Shown one piece after another: positions 4,415 through 13,577 of a DNA stretch of 58,829 nucleotides (the first letter of the stretch is position 1; each line of letters opens with the position of its first letter). Origin of the DNA: Anaerolineae bacterium (lineage in GTDB: Bacteria; Chloroflexota; Anaerolineae; 4572-78; J111); NCBI GenBank assembly GCA_016931895.1, contig JAFGDY010000162.1, positions 1-58,829 of the forward strand, written 5' to 3'. The position numbers and the translations under genes were made by a program. Under the pieces are notes generated by a model. It had not been told where the DNA came from and made no database searches. It was given only the letters and a program-made list of their open reading frames with translations.

Positions 4415-5494
4415 ATGTCTGAAGATGTCTATCGTAAATTGGCGCAACGGTTGGATACTATCCCCAATGGCTTTTCGCCCACCGAGAGCGGGGTGGAACT
4501 GCGCCTGCTGGCCAAGATATTTTCACCGGCTGAAGCGGCCCTGGCCTGCGTGCTGCGCCTCACGTTGGAGCCGGCGGCTGATATTGCCGCGCGGACCGGT
4601 GAGGACCCCGCCCAAACCTATCAAACCCTCAAAAAAATGTCTCGCCAGGGACAGATCCGGGCGAATAGGCAAGCGGGCCAGCTTGTTTTTGGACTGATGC
4701 CCTTTGCGGTGGGCATCTACGAAGAGCAGTTGTCTCGCCTGGATGCGGAGCTGGCCGCCCTGTTTGAACAATACTACCAGGAGACTCAGGGCGGTAGTCT
4801 GACCCACGATCTTCCGGCTATTCACCGGGTCATCCCGGTGGAGGAATCAATCCCGGTTGACATAGAAATTTTTCCCTACGAACGAGCCTCGGAACTGTTA
4901 GCCGGGGCCAAATCCTGGGCGGTGCGCGACTGCATTTGCCGCGTCCAGCAGCAGCTTGTGGGCAAAGGTTGCGACCGCCCGGTTGAAAATTGCCTGATCT
5001 TTGCCCCGGTGGAGAACGCTTTTGCCAGCAGTGGGGTGAATCGGGCCATCACCAAAGAAGAAGCCTTTCGCATTCTGCGCGAGGCTGAAGCGGCCGGGCT
5101 GGTCCACTCCGCCGGCAATTATCGCCATGAGCATTTTTACATTTGCAACTGTTGTCCCTGCTGCTGCGGAATCATGCGCGGCGTGGCCGAGTTTGGCCTG
5201 GCTACGGCCGTGGCTCATTCCGATTTTTTGGCCGTGGTAGAGCCTGAAATATGCGCCGGTTGCGGCGATTGCCTGGAACGCTGTCATTTTGGGGCGCTCG
5301 CCATCCCCGCGGAGGTGTGTTTGGTTGACCCTACGCGTTGCGTAGGCTGCGGGTTATGCGCCACAGTTTGTTCCACAGGCGCCTTGCACCTGGAGCGCCG
5401 GACTGAAGGTGATGTCCCCCCTCCACCGGCCGATCTCACCGCGTGGATGGTCCAACGCGCCGAGGAGCGCCACATTTCAATGGCCGACATTTAA
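4415..5494 (+). CDS. Winged-helix/2[4Fe-4S] ferredoxin fusion protein
   Basis: The 359-aa protein carries two ferredoxin clusters near its C-terminus: C280xxC283xxC286xxxC290 and C309xxC312xxC315xxxC319. Residues 35-100 (EAALACVLRL...IAARTGEDPAQTYQTLKKM) look like a winged-helix fold used here as a structural or sensing module. A middle section has C173xC175, C186, C193 and an unusual Cys-rich CNCCPCCCG at 244-252, which probably binds a further metal centre. It is likely cytoplasmic and moves electrons or senses redox state. A good Shine-Dalgarno (AAGGAG) precedes the ATG. It sits directly before the MvhD-MetV-MetF-GltS operon, so a role as its electron donor or acceptor is plausible but inferred. 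Confidence 0.8.
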   Translation: MSEDVYRKLAQRLDTIPNGFSPTESGVELRLLAKIFSPAEAALACVLRLTLEPAADIAARTGEDPAQTYQTLKKMSRQGQIRANRQAGQLVFGLMPFAVGIYEEQLSRLDAELAALFEQYYQETQGGSLTHDLPAIHRVIPVEESIPVDIEIFPYERASELLAGAKSWAVRDCICRVQQQLVGKGCDRPVENCLIFAPVENAFASSGVNRAITKEEAFRILREAEAAGLVHSAGNYRHEHFYICNCCPCCCGIMRGVAEFGLATAVAHSDFLAVVEPEICAGCGDCLERCHFGALAIPAEVCLVDPTRCVGCGLCATVCSTGALHLERRTEGDVPPPPADLTAWMVQRAEERHISMADI

Positions 5495-5552: not shown

Positions 5553-5580
5553 TTGGCAAAAATCTTAATGTGCGTATCAT
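5553..5580 (+). promoter_or_regulatory. Sigma70-type promoter of the mvhD-metVF-glt operon
   Basis: TTGGCA, 16 bases, TATCAT. Transcription would start close to 5587, which favours the ATG at 5610 rather than 5589 for the first gene. Confidence 0.5.
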
Positions 5581-5609
5581 GAGCCATCATGTTCAAAGTG
5601 GTAGGGTTA

Positions 5610-6041
5610 ATGATGACGAAACACAATCCTGTAGCTGAAGCCTGGCCGGAAATTGTGGTGCTGTATTGCCAGCATTGTCTTTCCAACGGCGCCAAGATTG
5701 CTCTGGCGGCCGAAAAAGTGAACGGCCTTCATCTGAAAACTGTGATGATGCCGTGCAGTAGTAAAGTTCAGGTGGCGGAGTTGTTCAAGATTCTGGATAA
5801 CGGGGCCGACGGCGTTGAGGTGGTGGCCTGTCCTGAACACACCTGCCAATTTCTGGTGGGCAGCCGCCGGGCGGAAAAGAGAATCGCCTACGCCCAGGGG
5901 CTTCTGCAGCAAGCCGGGATTAGCCGCGAGCGATTGGGCCTCAGCCGAGGCGCCGAACTTTCGGCTGAACAATTGATCGAAAGAGCCGTGGCCCGGGCCG
6001 AGGCGGTGCGGACGCCTGGGAAAAAAGGAGATGCCCCGTGA
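5610..6041 (+). CDS. mvhD: MvhD-like hydrogenase/heterodisulfide reductase iron-sulfur subunit
   Basis: This 143-aa protein resembles MvhD/FlpD, the small [2Fe-2S] protein that passes electrons between a hydrogenase or dehydrogenase and HdrA in methanogens and acetogens. Conserved cysteines are in LYCQHC, MPCSSK and ACPEHTCQF, the last being the family signature. The upstream ATG at 5589 lies too close to the predicted promoter, so I use 5610 (or 5613), preceded by GGTAGGG. The stop overlaps the GTG of metV (GTGA). No HdrA, HdrB or HdrC gene is nearby, so its electron partner here must differ, perhaps the large GltS-like flavoprotein of the same operon. The symbol is by similarity. Confidence 0.82.
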   Translation: MMTKHNPVAEAWPEIVVLYCQHCLSNGAKIALAAEKVNGLHLKTVMMPCSSKVQVAELFKILDNGADGVEVVACPEHTCQFLVGSRRAEKRIAYAQGLLQQAGISRERLGLSRGAELSAEQLIERAVARAEAVRTPGKKGDAP

Positions 6042-6709
6042 TTTTTGCAGAATGGAAACCCATTGATGAGATAATGAACCTGCTCAACGGTTACCACAAG
6101 GTGCTGCTGGTGGGCTGCGCCACGTGTGTGGCGGAATGTGCCGCGGGCGGGGAAAAAGAAGTCGAGACGCTGGCCCCGCTGCTCAGTCTCTCCTACAAAG
6201 AAAAGGGCCAGGCCGTAGAGATATTGGCCTGCACCCTTGAAAAGCAGTGCGAGTGGGAGTTTGTGGAGGATTTAGCCGAAAAGGCCGGGCAGGTTGACGC
6301 TATCCTCAGTTTGGCCTGTGGCATCGGGGTTCAGGCCCTGGCTGAACGTTTTGCGGATAAGCCGGTTTTTCCGGGAGTCAATACGGCCGCCCTGGCCATC
6401 CGGGAGAAGCCGGGGGCCTGGGCGGCTCGCTGCGCCGCTTGCGGCGACTGCGTTCTCGGCGACACGTTTGGTTATTGCCCCATCACGCGCTGCGCCAAAA
6501 GCCTGTTGAATGGACCGTGCGGGGGCACGCGGCCAAACGGAAAATGCGAAATTGACGAAGAGACTGACTGCGTTTGGAACCTCATTGTGGAACGCGCGGC
6601 CGAACGGGGCCAACTCGACTCTCTGGCCAGGATACGAAAGGCCAAAAATTGGTCGAACTCCCGGCATGGCGGACCCAAGCAGGTGATTCGGGAGGATATG
6701 AGACAATGA
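6038..6709 (+). CDS. metV: MetV-type methylene-THF reductase partner protein
   Basis: The 223-aa protein matches the methylenetetrahydrofolate reductase C-terminal domain family, named MetV in acetogens, which forms a complex with MetF and carries zinc and iron-sulfur sites. The N-terminal part has VGCATCVAEC (Cys27, 30, 34). The C-terminal part has CAACGDCVLG, then GYCPITRCAKSLLNGPCGG and GKCE, the family's hallmark. The start is GTG, overlapping the stop of the MvhD gene, with AAAAAAGGAG just upstream. Its TGA overlaps the ATG of metF. The order mvhD-metV-metF resembles the Moorella-type MetVF/Hdr-MvhD complex, but hdrABC is absent. Confidence 0.88.
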   Translation: MIFAEWKPIDEIMNLLNGYHKVLLVGCATCVAECAAGGEKEVETLAPLLSLSYKEKGQAVEILACTLEKQCEWEFVEDLAEKAGQVDAILSLACGIGVQALAERFADKPVFPGVNTAALAIREKPGAWAARCAACGDCVLGDTFGYCPITRCAKSLLNGPCGGTRPNGKCEIDEETDCVWNLIVERAAERGQLDSLARIRKAKNWSNSRHGGPKQVIREDMRQ

Positions 6710-7638
6710 CGTTAAAATCCGGCAGCAATTTGGAACGGGTGCTGGTCGCAGGACATTTTGCGGTAACGGTTGAAGTGGGTCCGCCCAGGGGGCCTGATTC
6801 CGCAGCGTTCAGGAAAAAGGCAGAGGTAGTCCAGGGGATGGCTGACGCATACAACGTGACCGATAACCAGACCGCCGTGGTCAGGATGTCGAGCATCGCG
6901 GCCTCCAAAATCTTGATGGAGCAAGGTTTGGAACCGGTCATGCAGATGGTCTGCCGCGACAGGAACCGGATTGCCATCCAGTCCGACCTGCTCGGCGCGT
7001 GGGTTTTGGGCATACGGAACTGTCTCTGCCTCTCGGGCGACCACCAGAGCGCCGGGGCCGGGGGCAAGCTCAAGGGACATCCGGGGGCCAAAAATGTTTA
7101 CGATATTGACTCGATCCAACTGCTATCGGTTTTGCAGGGCCTCGGGAGTGGTGTCCAGGAAGGTGGCGACTCTCTCGAGTCGCCGGCCTCTTTTTTTATC
7201 GGCGCGGCGTGGACACCGCTGGCTCCCCCGGAGAAATTCAGGACGATCCGGCTGGCCAAAAAGGTTGAGGCCGGGGCAGACTTCATCCAGACCCAGGCCG
7301 TGTACGACCTGGGCCGTTTTAAGCAGGCCATGCGCCGGGCAAATGAAGCCGGACTGACGGACAGGGTGGCCATTTTGCCGGGCATCATTTTCCCCAAGAG
7401 CGCGGGCATGCTGAAGTATATGCAGGCTAACGTGCCCGGGGTGGAAGTGCCCGAGGAAATGATCGCGCGGTTGCAATCCGCGGCCAGGCCCAGGGAAGAA
7501 GGTCTCCAGATAGCCCTCGAATTGATCAACGGTGTGAAAGAAATTCCCGGCGTTAAGGGAGTGCACCTACAGGCTATCGAGGCCGAACACCTACTGCCGG
7601 AATTGATAGAACAAGCGGGATTGTTGCCGAGGCCCTAA
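6706..7638 (+). CDS. metF: 5,10-methylenetetrahydrofolate reductase
   Basis: The 310-aa flavoprotein reduces methylene-THF to methyl-THF in the methyl branch of the Wood-Ljungdahl pathway or for methionine synthesis. Family features are FAVTVEVGPPRG near the start, DAYNVTDNQ, the LCLSGDHQ segment near residue 108, ADFIQTQAVYD near 190 and the closing GVKGVHLQ. The true start is the ATG at 6706, which overlaps the metV stop and follows GGAGG. The C-terminus is short, as in MetV-dependent MetF proteins that lack an NADH-binding extension, so electrons should come through MetV and the neighbouring iron-sulfur proteins. Only two bases separate it from the next gene. Confidence 0.92.
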   Translation: MTLKSGSNLERVLVAGHFAVTVEVGPPRGPDSAAFRKKAEVVQGMADAYNVTDNQTAVVRMSSIAASKILMEQGLEPVMQMVCRDRNRIAIQSDLLGAWVLGIRNCLCLSGDHQSAGAGGKLKGHPGAKNVYDIDSIQLLSVLQGLGSGVQEGGDSLESPASFFIGAAWTPLAPPEKFRTIRLAKKVEAGADFIQTQAVYDLGRFKQAMRRANEAGLTDRVAILPGIIFPKSAGMLKYMQANVPGVEVPEEMIARLQSAARPREEGLQIALELINGVKEIPGVKGVHLQAIEAEHLLPELIEQAGLLPRP

Positions 7639-7640
7639 TC

Positions 7641-10634
7641 ATGTCAATCAAGTATCAAGTTCACGTAGCAGAAACTCCGCCAAGATTCGTGCCCATTGCC
7701 AAACTCAACGCCATGGAAACGGAAGGTTGTTTGGGCTGCCGGATATGCGTGAAGCGGAGCGCGTGTGTTTACGACGTCTACCGGAAAAAGGAATTCAACC
7801 CGTCTCAGGTGGTGGATACCACGGATGTTTTGTGTATCAATTGTATGCGCTGCGTGCAAGAATGTAAAAAGAACATCCTGGCCCGGACTCGTAACCCCCA
7901 ATACGAGCGAATGGGTGATAGCTACTGGCGTCCGGGCCTGATTGCCAGTATCTGGCAACAAGCGCAAAACGGCAAGATACCGGTTTCCGGGGCCGGGTAT
8001 CGCGGCCCTTTCTGCGGGCCGGGTTTTGACTCTATGTGGACAGACATGTCTGAAATTGTCCGCCCGACCCGGGACGGCATCCACGGCCGCGAGTATATCA
8101 GCACCGTGATTGAACTGGGCCGCAAGCCCGGCTATCTCAAGTTCAATGCAGATGGCAGTCTGGCGACAGATGGACCGCTTTTTGTTGAAATTCCCATCCC
8201 CGTCGTGCTTCGCTTGCCGAGGGTTGGGTTTGTCAAACAAGGCGCGAAAGAGTCGATTGCCAGCGCGGCGGGAAAACTGGGTACGTTTGCCAGCATGCCG
8301 TTTACTGATGCGGTCAATGGCCTCAAGGGGCACAGAGACCACCTCATGGTTCACTTTGATCCGGCCCGCGACGATGCCCACCAATTGCCGGGATTCAGGA
8401 TGGTTGAGATTCCATATCTGGATAGTTTGAAAGAAGTAATTGCCACAATTAAGGCTGTTGACAGCAATATCATCATTTCGGTGAAAATTCCGTTGGATGA
8501 AAATGCCGGTGAGCGGGCCGTCGTCTTGGCTGAAGATGGGGTCGAAATGCTGCACCTTGAAGCCGACCGTAACGGTCACGGCCTGGGTCAGAAGCGGGAC
8601 CGGTTCATGATCGAGCTGGTTCAGGCAGTCCACTTCGCCCTGCTCGAAAAATCGCTTCGAGATGAAATTACGGTTCTTGTTTCCGGCGGGATGGCTATGG
8701 CGGAGCATGTCGCCAAGATCATCGCCTGTGGCGCGGACGGCGCGATCCTCGACACAGTCCTCCTGGTCGCCCTGGAATGTAGACTGTGCGGTGACTGTGC
8801 AGATAGGGTCAGGTGCCCCGTAGACATTGACGATGTGCCGGTTGAGTTTGGAACCCAGCGCATTGTTAATTTGCTGGGGGCCTGGCATGCCCAACTCATC
8901 GAGGTCATGGGCGCTATGGGCCTGCGGGAAGTGCGGCGGCTGCGGGGGGAATTGGGGCGGGTGATGTTCTTTGAGGACCTGGAAAAGGACAATTTTGGGC
9001 CGGTATTTGGGGAACGAAAACGTTCGCTTGATGAGACCCTTCAGGACGCTTTCGAGCAGGCAGCGCCGTCTGCCGGGCAGGATATAGGCCGGCCGGAGCA
9101 CCAATTCGCGCTTACGAGCGGGCAAGTAAAAGCGTGTCCGACCCGTTTCAGGAACAGCCTGGGCATCTATAAGGTGGTCAGGACCTCTGATTGTATTGCT
9201 TGTGGTAAGTGTGCGGAGGTTTGTCCTTATGGGGTGCATGTCAAGGCGGGGCAGAAGATGCTGGCTCCCCGTTCTCATCTCTGTCGCGGCTTTGATGTGT
9301 GCCGGGGGACGGAACATTTTTGCCTGAATCATTGCCCGACGAACGCCATCAGGATTGGGCTTGATCCTATGTGGAATGCGTTCGGCGACCCTCGCTGGAC
9401 CGCGGCCCTGCTCATAGCCACCTGGAAGCAAGCGGAAACAGGCTATCCGCCCGAGGAAAAGATCGAATACAAGGTCGGTAGTTCAGGCGGCGGGTTTGAC
9501 AGAATCTGCCTCAAGTTTCCAGATGGAGAAGGGCCAACTGAATTTGGCCCTGCGGACGTTGACCTCAGCGTGCCGCTCAACCGGCGCACCGGCGATGATC
9601 GGCCGGACGTTACCATCGGGATACCCATGTACGGCGGCGGGATGAGTTTTGGCTCTATCAGCCTTGATACGATCCTGGCCAGAGCCAGGGCCTTTGCCAC
9701 GTTTGATTCATTCACCTGCACCGGTGAGGGCGGCTACCCGGACGCGCTTGAGCCGTACAAGGATCATGTTATCACCCAGGTGGCCACCGGGCTTTTCGGG
9801 GTCAGGGAAGAGACTATTCAGCGCACCCGGATCGTTGAGTTCAAATATGCCCAGGGCGCTAAGCCGGGCCTGGGCGGCCATCTGTTGGGCGATAAAAATA
9901 CGCCGGCGGTGGCCAAAATGCGGGAAGCCGTCCAGGGTTTTCCGCTGTTCTCGCCGTTCCCTTTCCATTCAGTCTACTCTGTGGAAGACCACAAAAAGCA
10001 CGTGGACTGGGCCAAGGAGATAAACCCCCGCGCGCTGATCTCGGTGAAGGTCTCCGGCGCGAGTGACGTGGACATGGTGGCGGTGGGCAGTTATTACGCG
10101 GGCGCGCATATTGTTCATCTTGACGGCAGTTATGGCGGCACCGGCGCAGCGCCCGACATCGCCAAAAAGAATATTGCCATGCCCATTGAATACGCGGTGC
10201 CCAAAGTGCACCAGTTTCTCATCGAAGAGGGGGTTCGAGAGGAAATTACCCTGGCCGCCTCGGGCGGCATTCGGACGGCTTGGGACCTGGTAAAAATCAT
10301 CGCCCTTGGGGCGGACGTCGTTGTCATCGGCACTGTGGAGTTGGTGGCTTTGGAGTGTATCCGCTGCGGCGCGTGCGAGAGTGGCCGCGGCTGTCCCCGC
10401 GGGATAGCCACAACGGACCCGGAACTGGCGGCGATGTATTCTCAGGACTGGGCCGCGCAGAGGTTGGTCAATCTTTTTCACGCCTGGTCCATTCAGATTC
10501 AGCATATCCTGTGGCGGCTGGGGATGAGGAGTATCCGGGAGTTGGTCGGTCGTTTTGATTTGCTTGAGCACCTGGATTATTTGACGGCAGGCGCTCTACA
10601 CGGGTCGGGCAGTCTGAAGGGTAATCGTGGATGA
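7641..10634 (+). CDS. Tandem ferredoxin/glutamate-synthase-like flavoprotein
   Basis: The 997-aa protein holds two copies of a ferredoxin plus glutamate synthase (FMN) module. Copy 1: C30xxC33xxC36/C42 and C65xxC68xxC71xxxC75, then a GltS-like barrel (about 118-450) ending in ECRLCGDC...CP (380-393). Copy 2: C518xxC521xxC524xxxC528 with C548, C554, C561 and C565, then a complete GltS barrel (about 610-985) with IPMYGGGMSFGSIS, KPGLGGHLLG, HLDGSYGGTGAAP and ECIRCGACESGRGCP. Copy 1 lacks KPGLGGHL and replaces the HLDGSYGG loop with HLEADRNGHG, so it is probably not a normal catalytic site. With the next gene it makes up a split glutamate synthase; no NAD(P)H subunit is encoded. Electrons probably come from ferredoxin or from the MvhD/MetVF proteins (inference). 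Confidence 0.85.
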   Translation: MSIKYQVHVAETPPRFVPIAKLNAMETEGCLGCRICVKRSACVYDVYRKKEFNPSQVVDTTDVLCINCMRCVQECKKNILARTRNPQYERMGDSYWRPGLIASIWQQAQNGKIPVSGAGYRGPFCGPGFDSMWTDMSEIVRPTRDGIHGREYISTVIELGRKPGYLKFNADGSLATDGPLFVEIPIPVVLRLPRVGFVKQGAKESIASAAGKLGTFASMPFTDAVNGLKGHRDHLMVHFDPARDDAHQLPGFRMVEIPYLDSLKEVIATIKAVDSNIIISVKIPLDENAGERAVVLAEDGVEMLHLEADRNGHGLGQKRDRFMIELVQAVHFALLEKSLRDEITVLVSGGMAMAEHVAKIIACGADGAILDTVLLVALECRLCGDCADRVRCPVDIDDVPVEFGTQRIVNLLGAWHAQLIEVMGAMGLREVRRLRGELGRVMFFEDLEKDNFGPVFGERKRSLDETLQDAFEQAAPSAGQDIGRPEHQFALTSGQVKACPTRFRNSLGIYKVVRTSDCIACGKCAEVCPYGVHVKAGQKMLAPRSHLCRGFDVCRGTEHFCLNHCPTNAIRIGLDPMWNAFGDPRWTAALLIATWKQAETGYPPEEKIEYKVGSSGGGFDRICLKFPDGEGPTEFGPADVDLSVPLNRRTGDDRPDVTIGIPMYGGGMSFGSISLDTILARARAFATFDSFTCTGEGGYPDALEPYKDHVITQVATGLFGVREETIQRTRIVEFKYAQGAKPGLGGHLLGDKNTPAVAKMREAVQGFPLFSPFPFHSVYSVEDHKKHVDWAKEINPRALISVKVSGASDVDMVAVGSYYAGAHIVHLDGSYGGTGAAPDIAKKNIAMPIEYAVPKVHQFLIEEGVREEITLAASGGIRTAWDLVKIIALGADVVVIGTVELVALECIRCGACESGRGCPRGIATTDPELAAMYSQDWAAQRLVNLFHAWSIQIQHILWRLGMRSIRELVGRFDLLEHLDYLTAGALHGSGSLKGNRG

Positions 10635-13189
10635 AACACTTCACCAAACAACTCATTGCTTCTAAACGCAAACTTGTAGCCGATGCGTCGCGTTTGGGTG
10701 GTAATCCCGAGGCCGAAGGCGGCTGCGGGGTAGTGGGTTTTGCGGCCAGTGTGCCAGTAGGCGGTAGAAATATCTTTGAAGCTTCCATCCAGATGCACAA
10801 TCGGGGCAACGGAAAAGGCGGCGGCATTGCGGCGGCGGGGCTGGTATTTGAGCAGGTCGGGGTGGACGCTGACACCTTGCAGAACGATTACATCCTGCAA
10901 ATAGCCCTGCTCAAGCCGGAGGTGGAACAGGCGGTTGAGGACGGGTTTATTTCCCCCGACCTGCGCATAGACTACCGGGGGAAGATCAAGACCCTGGCTG
11001 ATTATCGGGCTATTGGCCTTGAGGTGAGACCGCCGGACGTGATGCGCTATTTTGTCAGGGTCAAGGAAGCTGCCCTGGCCCGTTTTGCAGAAGAGAATGG
11101 TCTGACGGACGCCCCCCCGCGTTTGGTTGAGGACGAATTTATCTACCAAAACAGTTTTAAGCTGAACCAGCGCTTCTACGCTTCTTTGGGTGAAAAGCAA
11201 GCGTTTGTGATGTCCCACGCCCGCAACCTGGTGATCTTCAAAATCGTCGGGTACGCCGAACAGGTGATGCAGTATTACGGGTTGGCAGATATGCAGGCTT
11301 ACGTGTGGATCGGTCACCAACGCTATCCAACCAAAGGGCGGGTCTGGCATCCGGCCGGCGCGCACCCCTTCATCGGGCTTAACGAAGCCCTGGTGCACAA
11401 CGGCGACTTTGCCAATTATTTCAGCATTGTGGAATACTTGCGGCAGCATAACGTGGTCTCCCAGTTTTTGACGGATACCGAAGTGTCGGTGTTGACCTTT
11501 GATCTGCTCAACCGCACGTTCGGTTATCCCCTGGAATACGTGATCGAAGCGCTGGCCCCAACCACGGAGCTTGACTTTGACCGTTTGCCAGATGAGAAGA
11601 AGAAAATTTACCGGGCCGTTCAGTCCAGTCATATCCACGGGTCTCCTGACGGCCCCTGGTTCTTTATTATTGCCCGCAGTAACCCTGACCAGGACACCTA
11701 TCAACTCATCGGCATTACCGATACCGCCATGTTAAGGCCGCAGGTGTTTGCGCTCCAGGCAGGCGACGTATCTATTGGCCTGATCGCCTCGGAAAAGCAG
11801 GCCATTGATGCCACGTTGCAAACCCTGGCCCGGGAGGATTCTCGGTTCTGGCCGATTGCTGATAGATACTGGAATGCTCGCGGCGGCAGTCATACGGATG
11901 GCGGCGCGTTTGCCTTCACCGTGAGCGGATCAAAACTATCCTGCGCAGACAAGTTTGGCCAGGCCATTACCTGCCCGCCGGGAGACTGGAGATTCGACCG
12001 GAGTGTTGAACCTGAAGCGCCGGAAGGCTACCCTGAAATTGTTGCGAAAATCGAGGCGGCGGCGGACGGAACTGTCTCTGAAGTCTTTAACCTGATCGTG
12101 AGCCGGATCACCGGCTGGGAGTTTAGCCATCTACGCTGGCTGACCGGCAAGCTGGTTGATCTTGCTGGCCGTGACGCTGCCAGTTTTGCCTGGGTTATGG
12201 CGCTGCTCTGTCTCCTTAACGACAGGCGGTATGACTGCGGACGTATGCGCAGAAGCATGGTGGTGCAGTTGGTCAGGGAAGCCATTGAGGCGATCCTGAA
12301 TGCAGTGCCGCTGATTTGCGAAAACGGTCGCAGTCATGTGCGCCGGGTAGATTGGCAAACTCGCGCTGCGCTTCGCGCGCCAAAAGTCAATGAGACGACC
12401 CTCGTTATTTACGCCCATGACTTTCCGCCGGAGGGCGACGAGTGCGACGCGCGTCTATTGGTGTCCGCGCGTGAACTTGGCTGGAAAAAGTTTATCGTGT
12501 ACGGTCTCAAAGGGCAGAGATTCACCGGCTGCGGTTTTGGCCCTGGGTCGGACGAGGTCCGGCTGGACATCTTTGGCAGTTCGGGCGACTATCTGGCCTC
12601 CGGTATTGACGGTATGGAAATCCAGGTGCATGGCAACGGCCAGGACCAACTGGGCCAGATCATGAAGCGCGGCAAGCTGGTGGTTTATGGAGACGTAGGT
12701 CAAGCCTTTATGTACGGGGCTAAGGGGGGAGAGGTGTATGTTCTGGGTAACGCGGCCGGCCGGCCGCTGATCAACGCTGTGGGCAAACCGAGGGTCGTGA
12801 TCAACGGCACGTGCCTTGATTTCCTGGCCGAGTCCTTTATGGCCGGCGATCCGCTGAATGGCGGTGGCTTTGTGGTTTTGAACGGGGTCCGGTTTGACGA
12901 CAGGGGAAATGTTGAGGCGCTTGAAAATCCGTATCCCGGCGCCAACCTGTTTTCTCTGGCCTCAGGTGGGGCAATTTACGTGCGAGACCCTGATCACAAA
13001 CTCGTGCCAGACCAGCTCAATGGCGGCGAATTTGCCGAGCTAACGGATGATGATTGGCATCTGATTCTCCCCTATCTTGAGGCCAACGAGAAATATTTTG
13101 GCATCTCCATCGAGCACGACCTGTTGACCGTCGCTGGGGTCAGAAAATCGCCTCAAACAGTTTACCGGAAAATTCAGCCTCGCCGGTGA
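10631..13189 (+). CDS. Class II glutamine amidotransferase plus GXGXG domain (glutamate synthase subunit)
   Basis: The 852-aa protein has the two outer domains of the glutamate synthase large subunit. An N-terminal amidotransferase starts at Cys32 (GGCGVVGFAA) after a 31-residue propeptide that must be removed to free the catalytic Cys. Typical partners are MHNRGNGKGGG, HPFIGLNEALVHNGDFAN (oxyanion Asn-Gly) and TDTEVSVL. A GXGXG beta-helix lies at about 640-780 (GSSGDYLASGIDG, HGNGQDQLGQ, YGDVGQAFMYGAKGGEVYVLGNA). The central FMN barrel is absent and is supplied by the preceding gene, with which the ATG overlaps by 4 bases. Expected role: release ammonia from glutamine and channel it to the flavoprotein. 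Whether 2-oxoglutarate is the acceptor is not shown. Confidence 0.85.
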   Translation: MKHFTKQLIASKRKLVADASRLGGNPEAEGGCGVVGFAASVPVGGRNIFEASIQMHNRGNGKGGGIAAAGLVFEQVGVDADTLQNDYILQIALLKPEVEQAVEDGFISPDLRIDYRGKIKTLADYRAIGLEVRPPDVMRYFVRVKEAALARFAEENGLTDAPPRLVEDEFIYQNSFKLNQRFYASLGEKQAFVMSHARNLVIFKIVGYAEQVMQYYGLADMQAYVWIGHQRYPTKGRVWHPAGAHPFIGLNEALVHNGDFANYFSIVEYLRQHNVVSQFLTDTEVSVLTFDLLNRTFGYPLEYVIEALAPTTELDFDRLPDEKKKIYRAVQSSHIHGSPDGPWFFIIARSNPDQDTYQLIGITDTAMLRPQVFALQAGDVSIGLIASEKQAIDATLQTLAREDSRFWPIADRYWNARGGSHTDGGAFAFTVSGSKLSCADKFGQAITCPPGDWRFDRSVEPEAPEGYPEIVAKIEAAADGTVSEVFNLIVSRITGWEFSHLRWLTGKLVDLAGRDAASFAWVMALLCLLNDRRYDCGRMRRSMVVQLVREAIEAILNAVPLICENGRSHVRRVDWQTRAALRAPKVNETTLVIYAHDFPPEGDECDARLLVSARELGWKKFIVYGLKGQRFTGCGFGPGSDEVRLDIFGSSGDYLASGIDGMEIQVHGNGQDQLGQIMKRGKLVVYGDVGQAFMYGAKGGEVYVLGNAAGRPLINAVGKPRVVINGTCLDFLAESFMAGDPLNGGGFVVLNGVRFDDRGNVEALENPYPGANLFSLASGGAIYVRDPDHKLVPDQLNGGEFAELTDDDWHLILPYLEANEKYFGISIEHDLLTVAGVRKSPQTVYRKIQPRR

Positions 13190-13577
13190 GTCGAGATCGC
13201 TATGAAAATTGCTCTGAGTTGCTCTTTGGCCTGGTACTGATGGCCTGGCTGGCCTGGGTAGCGATAGGATCGTGGGGACTGGCCAGGCTGGCGGTGCGTC
13301 CTTGGTTAGGGCAGGGTACGTTTGCGCTGGGCCTGGTGCTGGCCGGGTTATTACTACGCAAATCACGCTTGTGCGTTATGCGCGGACGTTGTTGGGCGTT
13401 ACCCCGGGCGCCTTTGTCAAGTTCATCCCCATGGTCGGGGCTATTGTGCTTATCTTGGCCCCGTTGTGTGTGCTGGCCGGTTTTTTGTTTACCCTGGGCG
13501 CTCGTTTTATGGTGGGAGAGGGCAAGAATCCTGGTGTAATTGACGACGGACGACGAAGTACGAACGACCAACGATAG
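13186..13577 (+). pseudogene. Small membrane protein broken by a frameshift
   Basis: A GTG overlaps the stop of the amidotransferase gene (GTGA) and opens a frame with two hydrophobic stretches (LLFGLVLMAWLAWVAIGSW, TFALGLVLAGLLL). After about 13345 that frame turns into implausible sequence rich in Ser, Pro, Cys and Trp, while the +2 frame continues as a believable membrane protein (LVRYARTLLGVTPGAFVKF, MVGAIVLILAPLCVLAGFLF) to a stop at 13577. The simplest reading is one protein of about 130 aa with a one-base loss or two-base gain near the GGG at 13345-13347, either real or a sequencing error. The family is unknown; the tail runs into an inverted repeat. Confidence 0.55.

Follow-up and report, generated by a model that had tools for sequence, protein, structure and literature searches.

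In a 58,829-nucleotide contig of an Anaerolineae bacterium (JAFGDY010000162.1, assembly GCA_016931895.1; hereafter the window, meaning this whole stretch), genes for a MetVF-type methylene-tetrahydrofolate (CH2-THF) reductase and the adaptor protein MvhD stand directly before those of a rearranged glutamate synthase (GOGAT), and the conservation of this link in gene order is well supported. The recurrence of the order in many unrelated anaerobes suggests that electrons of one-carbon metabolism pass directly into glutamate synthesis. The system is a glutamate synthase variant in its electron supply; the link is widespread, was apparently formed more than once, and no description of MetVF/MvhD with glutamate synthase was found in the literature searched, which included few subscription journals. 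Gene calls and family scans gave five + strand genes between 5589 and 13189, namely mvhD, metV, metF, gltS (997 aa) and a gene for a glutamine amidotransferase (GATase) joined to a GXGXG domain (852 aa; GAT in gene orders), which are listed here with their parts, an adjoining open reading frame (ORF) and a promoter-like site.

5589 to 6041, + strand: mvhD, FlpD family, 150 aa, probable [2Fe-2S] electron adaptor (PF02662, E 3e-20)
6038 to 6709, + strand: metV, 223 aa, cysteine-rich partner subunit of MetF (PF12225, E 1.8e-32)
6706 to 7638, + strand: metF, 310 aa from the ATG at 6706, MetVF-type CH2-THF reductase (PF02219, E 5.7e-34)
7641 to 10634, + strand: gltS, 997-aa Glu_synthase protein with two Glu_synthase stretches and two ferredoxin-type regions
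7641 to 8990, + strand: GltS_N, first half of the 997-aa protein, a 2x[4Fe-4S] ferredoxin-type region at about 7716-7892 (Fer4_9) and a degenerate GltS barrel
9153 to 10574, + strand: GltS_C, second half of the 997-aa protein, a ferredoxin-type region at about 9153-9365 and a flavin mononucleotide (FMN) glutamate synthase domain with 3Fe-4S cysteines (PF01645, E 2.4e-103)
10631 to 13189, + strand: GATase-GXGXG, 852 aa, class II GATase with EGG before C32 at about 10724-11965 and GXGXG at about 12428-13180 (PF01493; weak GATase_6; glmS/purF-like GATase)
13186 to 13539, + strand: small overlapping ORF, probably outside the system (no family match, no homolog in 80 loci)
5553 to 5580, + strand: promoter-like site 5' of mvhD, TTGGCA-16-TATCAT, not above chance

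The genes are closely joined: mvhD and metV share a GTGA (6038-6041), metV and metF an ATGA (6706-6709), metF and gltS are 2 bases apart (7639-7640), and gltS overlaps the GATase-GXGXG gene by 4 bases (10631-10634). Neither hdrABC nor gltD lies within the cluster, as the initial annotation had it, and no gene for an NAD(P)H-binding or HdrA subunit was found there. The cluster resembles the MetVF-MvhD-HdrABC methylene-THF reductase complex of Moorella thermoacetica in that MetF, MetV and MvhD are encoded as neighbours; it differs in having a glutamate synthase instead of HdrABC, and no NAD(P)H-binding subunit.

Conservation of the order was followed by searching an alignment of the GATase-GXGXG protein against the genome_contigs collection (one genome per species, 84,980 species), which gave at least 560 relatives; the analysis continued with the top 80 of them, which are the closest kin of the window, not a random sample. 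One hit comes from a metagenome-assembled genome named Desulforapulum autotrophicum (L122), another from Desulfonema limicola (L105). In 17 of the 80 loci the contig stops short of gltS_N and in 16 it offers too little upstream sequence, leaving 47 that can be read. MvhD precedes gltS in 44 of the 47, and metF and/or metV belongs to the cluster in about 37: mvhD-metV stands directly before gltS in 32, nearly all of them with metF as well, three place mvhD before gltS and metVF or metV behind it, and two have mvhD and metF only. Among the three scored as lacking mvhD, one (L069) does carry an overlapping mvhD ORF, which is not counted in the 44. The full order was seen in at least seven phyla, including Planctomycetota, Fibrobacterota, Thermodesulfobacteriota, Chloroflexota, Actinomycetota, Poribacteria and Abyssobacteria (names as given by the records or the tree tool), and since a five-gene order recurs across phyla we rejected chance as its source. 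Thus the proposed tie of MetVF-MvhD to a glutamate-synthase-like flavoprotein is borne out across phyla, though close relatives of the host are without the cluster.

The MetF sequences point the same way. In a maximum-likelihood tree of 83 rows, the window falls in a clade of 13 MetFs linked to gltS (support 100/99), where it groups with Fibrobacterota and Planctomycetota; a 16-row Desulfobacterales/Dehalococcoidia clade contains 15 linked rows (support 100/99), a three-row clade has metVF 3' of GAT, further small linked groups exist, and 21 unlinked paralogs from module genomes form a clade of their own. Changes between the linked and unlinked labels number 6 on a quick FastTree tree, where shuffled labels gave 28 on average; with long branches removed the two figures are 5 and 26. 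Nearly all module genomes encode several MetFs, and in fused-type genomes the one most similar to the window MetF sits in the gltS cluster. Pairwise distances of GltS_C over 25 genomes correlate with those of the linked MetF (Pearson 0.85), MetV (0.93) and MvhD (0.86), against 0.54 for an unlinked MetF paralog; these correlations support linkage rather than contact, since shared transfer as one unit would give the same. Because linked MetFs fall in several clades apart from the unlinked ones and their distances track those of GltS, MetF was probably tied to the glutamate synthase module repeatedly. In the proteins themselves, MetF carries the conserved motifs TDNQTA, RDRNRxAxQSD, LSGDHQ and KKxxAGADFIQTQ, 13 cysteines of MetV are invariant across 36 linked homologs, and C27, C56, C81 and C86 of MvhD occur in all 49 GltS-linked homologs (C30 in 18%), which suits a [2Fe-2S] adaptor as in Mvh/Hdr.

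The two halves of the 997-aa protein have fared differently. In GltS_C, aligned to residues 857-1171 of 1ea0/2vdc, all tested canonical motifs (GEGG, QGAKPGxGG, SPxPxHxxYSxED and GGTGAxP) and the three 3Fe-4S cysteines are intact and invariant. GltS_N lacks GEGG, QVATGLFGV, QGAKPGLGG, SPFPFHSVYSVED and GGTGAAP, in part because the loops that would carry them are deleted; its eight ferredoxin cysteines are all invariant in 34 split homologs. The doubled glutamate synthase of the initial annotation is therefore correct as to the two Glu_synthase stretches, but the first half, having lost the substrate and flavin motifs, is no second synthase, and for this loss we rejected two active synthases in one chain. 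Profile alignment of GltS_N gave 98.9% for the FMN domain versus 21.9% for the central-domain region of GltB. An AlphaFold (AF2) model of the protein (predicted local distance difference test 73.6, predicted TM score 0.73, first ferredoxin part of low confidence) has the fold of 1ea0/1ofe, and its residues 93-980 align structurally, in sequential order, with residues 451-1181 of A. brasilense GltB, the central and FMN domains (Z 29.1, 617 residues, 3.4 Å). True orthology of GltS_N to the canonical central domain finds no support in sequence, where the profile favours the FMN domain, though the model puts GltS_N at the central-domain position. GltS_N is a degenerate GltS paralog with ferredoxin-type clusters, probably serving as an electron relay or entry part.

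The remaining hallmarks of a GOGAT, besides the FMN synthase domain in the GltS_C half only, are a class II GATase, whose C32 and EGG context are invariant in 8 homologs and whose N-terminal cysteine is predicted to follow a propeptide, and a GXGXG domain (PF01493, E 1.9e-14); the GltD-type FAD/NADPH subunit of NADPH-GOGAT is not in the cluster. Like the canonical NADPH GltBD and ferredoxin-dependent glutamate synthases, the window system shows conserved motifs in its GATase, FMN synthase and GXGXG domains; unlike them, it has these domains re-split as [Fd-GltS_N-Fd-GltS_C] + [GATase-GXGXG], with an Fe-S-bearing degenerate GltS paralog at the central-domain position. With the archaeal-type split synthase, which has separate GATase, Fd-FMN and GXGXG genes (L043, L044), it shares an Fd-FMN synthase protein and a separate GATase (36% identity in GltS_C, 27-28% in GATase), but here GXGXG is fused to GATase and the degenerate Fd-GltS paralog is extra.

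Neighbouring genes place this module in nitrogen metabolism. Among 95 module loci we counted glnA 13 times, carA 10, amt 8, and PII, carB and purF 7 times each, and the order in ANME-1 (anaerobic methanotrophic archaea) is amt-PII-glnA-GlcD-gltS_N-gltS_C-GAT, followed by carB-carA. These recurrent neighbours indicate a glutamate synthase that serves ammonia assimilation, which makes the new ammonia enzyme once suggested for the cluster the less likely reading.

The position before gltS_N looks, from the genes found there, like a slot for an exchangeable electron donor. Where mvhD-metVF is missing, a GlcD-type FAD/Fe-S gene (FAD_binding_4/FAD-oxidase_C/Fer4_8) can stand before gltS_N (L115, L125, L206 and L207, also L233 and L234), and in L034 (3071-6730, - strand) a single 1219-aa chain combines a GlcD-type FAD/Fe-S oxidoreductase with GltS_N, GltS_C and glnA coming next in order. 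An HdrA gene is found close to the module in five loci (L091, L092, L100, L113 and L121). In ANME, FrhB10 clusters with glutamate synthase subunits in what were proposed to be F420-dependent glutamate synthases (PMC9012536); there too synthase subunits are clustered with a redox module replacing GltD, the module being FrhB in that paper, GlcD-type in the ANME-1 relatives and MvhD-MetVF in the window.

Two further layouts were noted. L100 (1404-12592) encodes HdrA, an Fe-S protein, MvhD, MetV and MetF and then a second MvhD with GltS_N-GltS_C-GAT, giving two MvhDs in the cluster. One genome, G216 (L069, L235, L237), has two versions of the module: a fused one accompanied by MvhD, and a split one. 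Of the split version, MvhD-MetV and GltS_N stand at the end of one contig, and a different contig bears GltS_C-GAT together with genes for carbon monoxide dehydrogenase/acetyl-CoA synthase (CODH/ACS).

Taking these observations together, we propose that the glutamate synthase of this cluster is wired for electron transfer to a MetVF-type reductase, with oxidation of methyl-THF (CH3-THF) feeding glutamate synthesis, a proposal we regard as an even call. The GATase would free ammonia from glutamine, and GltS_C, with its FMN and 3Fe-4S cluster, would add it to 2-oxoglutarate and reduce the imine. GltS_N, at the canonical position of the GltB central domain, would assume the electron-entry role held elsewhere by GltD, and MvhD would be the adaptor that docks the donor enzyme, in the window MetVF. 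Net flow would then run from CH3-THF to MetF (FAD), the Fe-S clusters of MetV/MvhD, those of GltS_N, GltS_C and finally glutamate. The CH2-THF/CH3-THF couple lies at about -200 mV and that of 2-oxoglutarate plus ammonia/glutamate at about -120 mV; the former being the more negative, a GOGAT driven by CH3-THF would work downhill. The exchangeable-donor slot is the main reason to prefer CH3-THF oxidation over CH2-THF reduction as the likely direction. More tentatively than the wiring as such, we suggest a single complex that oxidises CH3-THF and makes glutamate directly, its GOGAT core taking exchangeable donors (MetVF-MvhD, GlcD-type, possibly F420- or Hdr-linked) via the degenerate GltS paralog. 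Electron flow between the methylene-THF reductase and the GltS-like flavoprotein, as first suggested, thus has the conserved linkage in its favour; the physical complex, the electron path and its direction we infer. Should CH3-THF indeed drive glutamate synthesis, a reductant too weak to reduce NAD+ or ferredoxin, in place of NADPH or ferredoxin, would pay for ammonia assimilation in many uncultured sulfate reducers, planctomycetes and chloroflexi, and to read the 997-aa protein as an ordinary or doubled GltS would be wrong. The energetics of anaerobes still poses the question which electron partner MetVF-type reductases use physiologically, and glutamate synthase would be a concrete candidate.

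Several observations weigh against this proposal. Seven of the 47 readable loci have mvhD alone and no metVF, so MetVF is not obligatory, and in these MvhD must draw electrons elsewhere, possibly from HdrA. The 80 loci, being the most similar matches, are biased toward kin of the window. Within the class to which the host belongs, the module is found with neither MvhD nor MetVF, and several fused proteins among these relatives have lost ferredoxin cysteines, a loss to be expected if those cysteines serve the donor module. Finally, the host already possesses a second MetVF set and canonical GltBD (see below), which clouds the physiological need.

The strongest rival, which we consider rather unlikely, is a shared input: reduced ferredoxin or an HdrA encoded elsewhere would load MvhD/GltS_N and serve both MetVF, reducing CH2-THF to CH3-THF, and GltS_C, converting 2-oxoglutarate to glutamate, so that neither feeds the other, possibly by flavin-based bifurcation. 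In acetogens, MetVF is believed to draw its electrons from ferredoxin or from HdrABC/MvhD (PMC8760232, PMC8515935, PMC9430772), and HdrA genes are within reach in the five loci named above; ferredoxin-type domains are present in both GltS_N and GltS_C, and AcsB in 46 of 50 other module genomes (background 89 of 199 in the window's class) means that many of them could run the Wood-Ljungdahl pathway reductively. However, the modules that occupy the same slot elsewhere resemble electron-donating substrate dehydrogenases, of GlcD type or, in ANME, of FrhB/F420 type (PMC9012536), and the window cluster has neither an NAD(P)H-binding nor an HdrA subunit.

Improbable, in our view, is co-regulation only, by which MetVF-MvhD and the glutamate synthase would be separate complexes in one operon since one-carbon units and nitrogen are needed together. 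Gene clustering by itself is no proof of contact, and MetVF is missing from some loci and encoded 3' of GAT in L101, L102, L110 and L119; against this stand the repeated linkage, the dedicated MetF clades and the correlated distances, the constancy of MvhD, the most regular partner of gltS and an electron adaptor with no known stand-alone function, and the direct fusion of a donor-slot protein to GltS_N in L034. That the FMN and GATase parts make a product other than glutamate, as an N-methylglutamate synthase-like or other folate-linked amidotransfer enzyme, is highly improbable, for although N-methylglutamate synthase also uses split GATase, GXGXG and Fe-S/FMN proteins and the host also has canonical GltBD, every canonical synthase motif tested is intact in GltS_C, and glnA, PII, amt and carAB recur nearby, as in the amt-PII-glnA-GlcD-gltS order of ANME-1.

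The window is contig 162 of a metagenome-assembled genome of 6.06 Mb (97.4% complete, 4.7% contamination), in which absences rest on family searches. Formate-THF ligase (Fhs) is present, but these searches gave no match to AcsB (PF03598) or the CODH catalytic subunit (PF03063). An acetogenic host is therefore not supported, and the acetogen frame in which the cluster had first been viewed does not fit; without CODH/ACS the host must obtain CH3-THF another way. On contig 72 a separate HdrA(1523 aa)-MvhD-MetV-MetF-HdrCB cluster lies near fhs (MvhD matching weakly, within an ORF of 77 aa, and HdrCB recognised from sequence, not by family scan), and contig 64 encodes canonical GltB with GltD, the latter again recognised from sequence, not by family scan. 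The statement that GltS takes the place of HdrABC is accordingly right for the cluster, not for the genome, and with a second MetVF set and GltBD at hand the window system is an addition, not a replacement. Having these and no CODH/ACS, the host cannot be called an ordinary acetogen. The HdrA-like protein of contig 72 (L046, 2359-6930) has a Pyr_redox/GltD-like insertion.

The GATase-GXGXG gene occurs in only the host among 25 genomes of its order, not in a genome of the same genus, and in 10 of 400 genomes of the phylum. Next to the cluster on its 3' side, an ABC transporter gene shares 84% identity with its same-genus ortholog and 75-78% with its top matches in five further genomes from the family, and the ABC pair occurs without the cluster in three relatives (G256, G254 and G255); on these grounds contamination was rejected as the source of the cluster. 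Given its patchy presence in order and phylum, the ABC pair without it in relatives, and the grouping of its MetF with Fibrobacterota and Planctomycetota, acquisition by horizontal transfer would be the simplest reading.

At its borders the cluster is less well defined than first described. Six coupled genes behind a single promoter had been proposed, and five stand with all the junctions described; the sixth, a 117-aa ORF (13186-13539) joined to the GATase-GXGXG gene by a GTGA (13186-13189), has no match in Pfam or NCBIfam, none of the 80 related loci contains a homolog of it, and it finds no support as a conserved part. Nor does the promoter hold, for TTGGCA-16-TATCAT is present but such sites are not enriched (4 found, 3.6 expected in shuffles). 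The small ORF and a second one in another frame (13272-13577, likewise without a Pfam match) overlap within 13186-13577 and contain hydrophobic stretches, perhaps a remnant of a broken membrane protein gene. Upstream of mvhD, 4415-5494 encodes a 359-aa protein with a C-terminal ferredoxin-type domain; this 4Fe-4S protein is likewise unsupported as a conserved part, a distant relative being near the cluster only in L104. Farther downstream, from 19286 to 58829, the window holds a long run of genes, mostly on the + strand.

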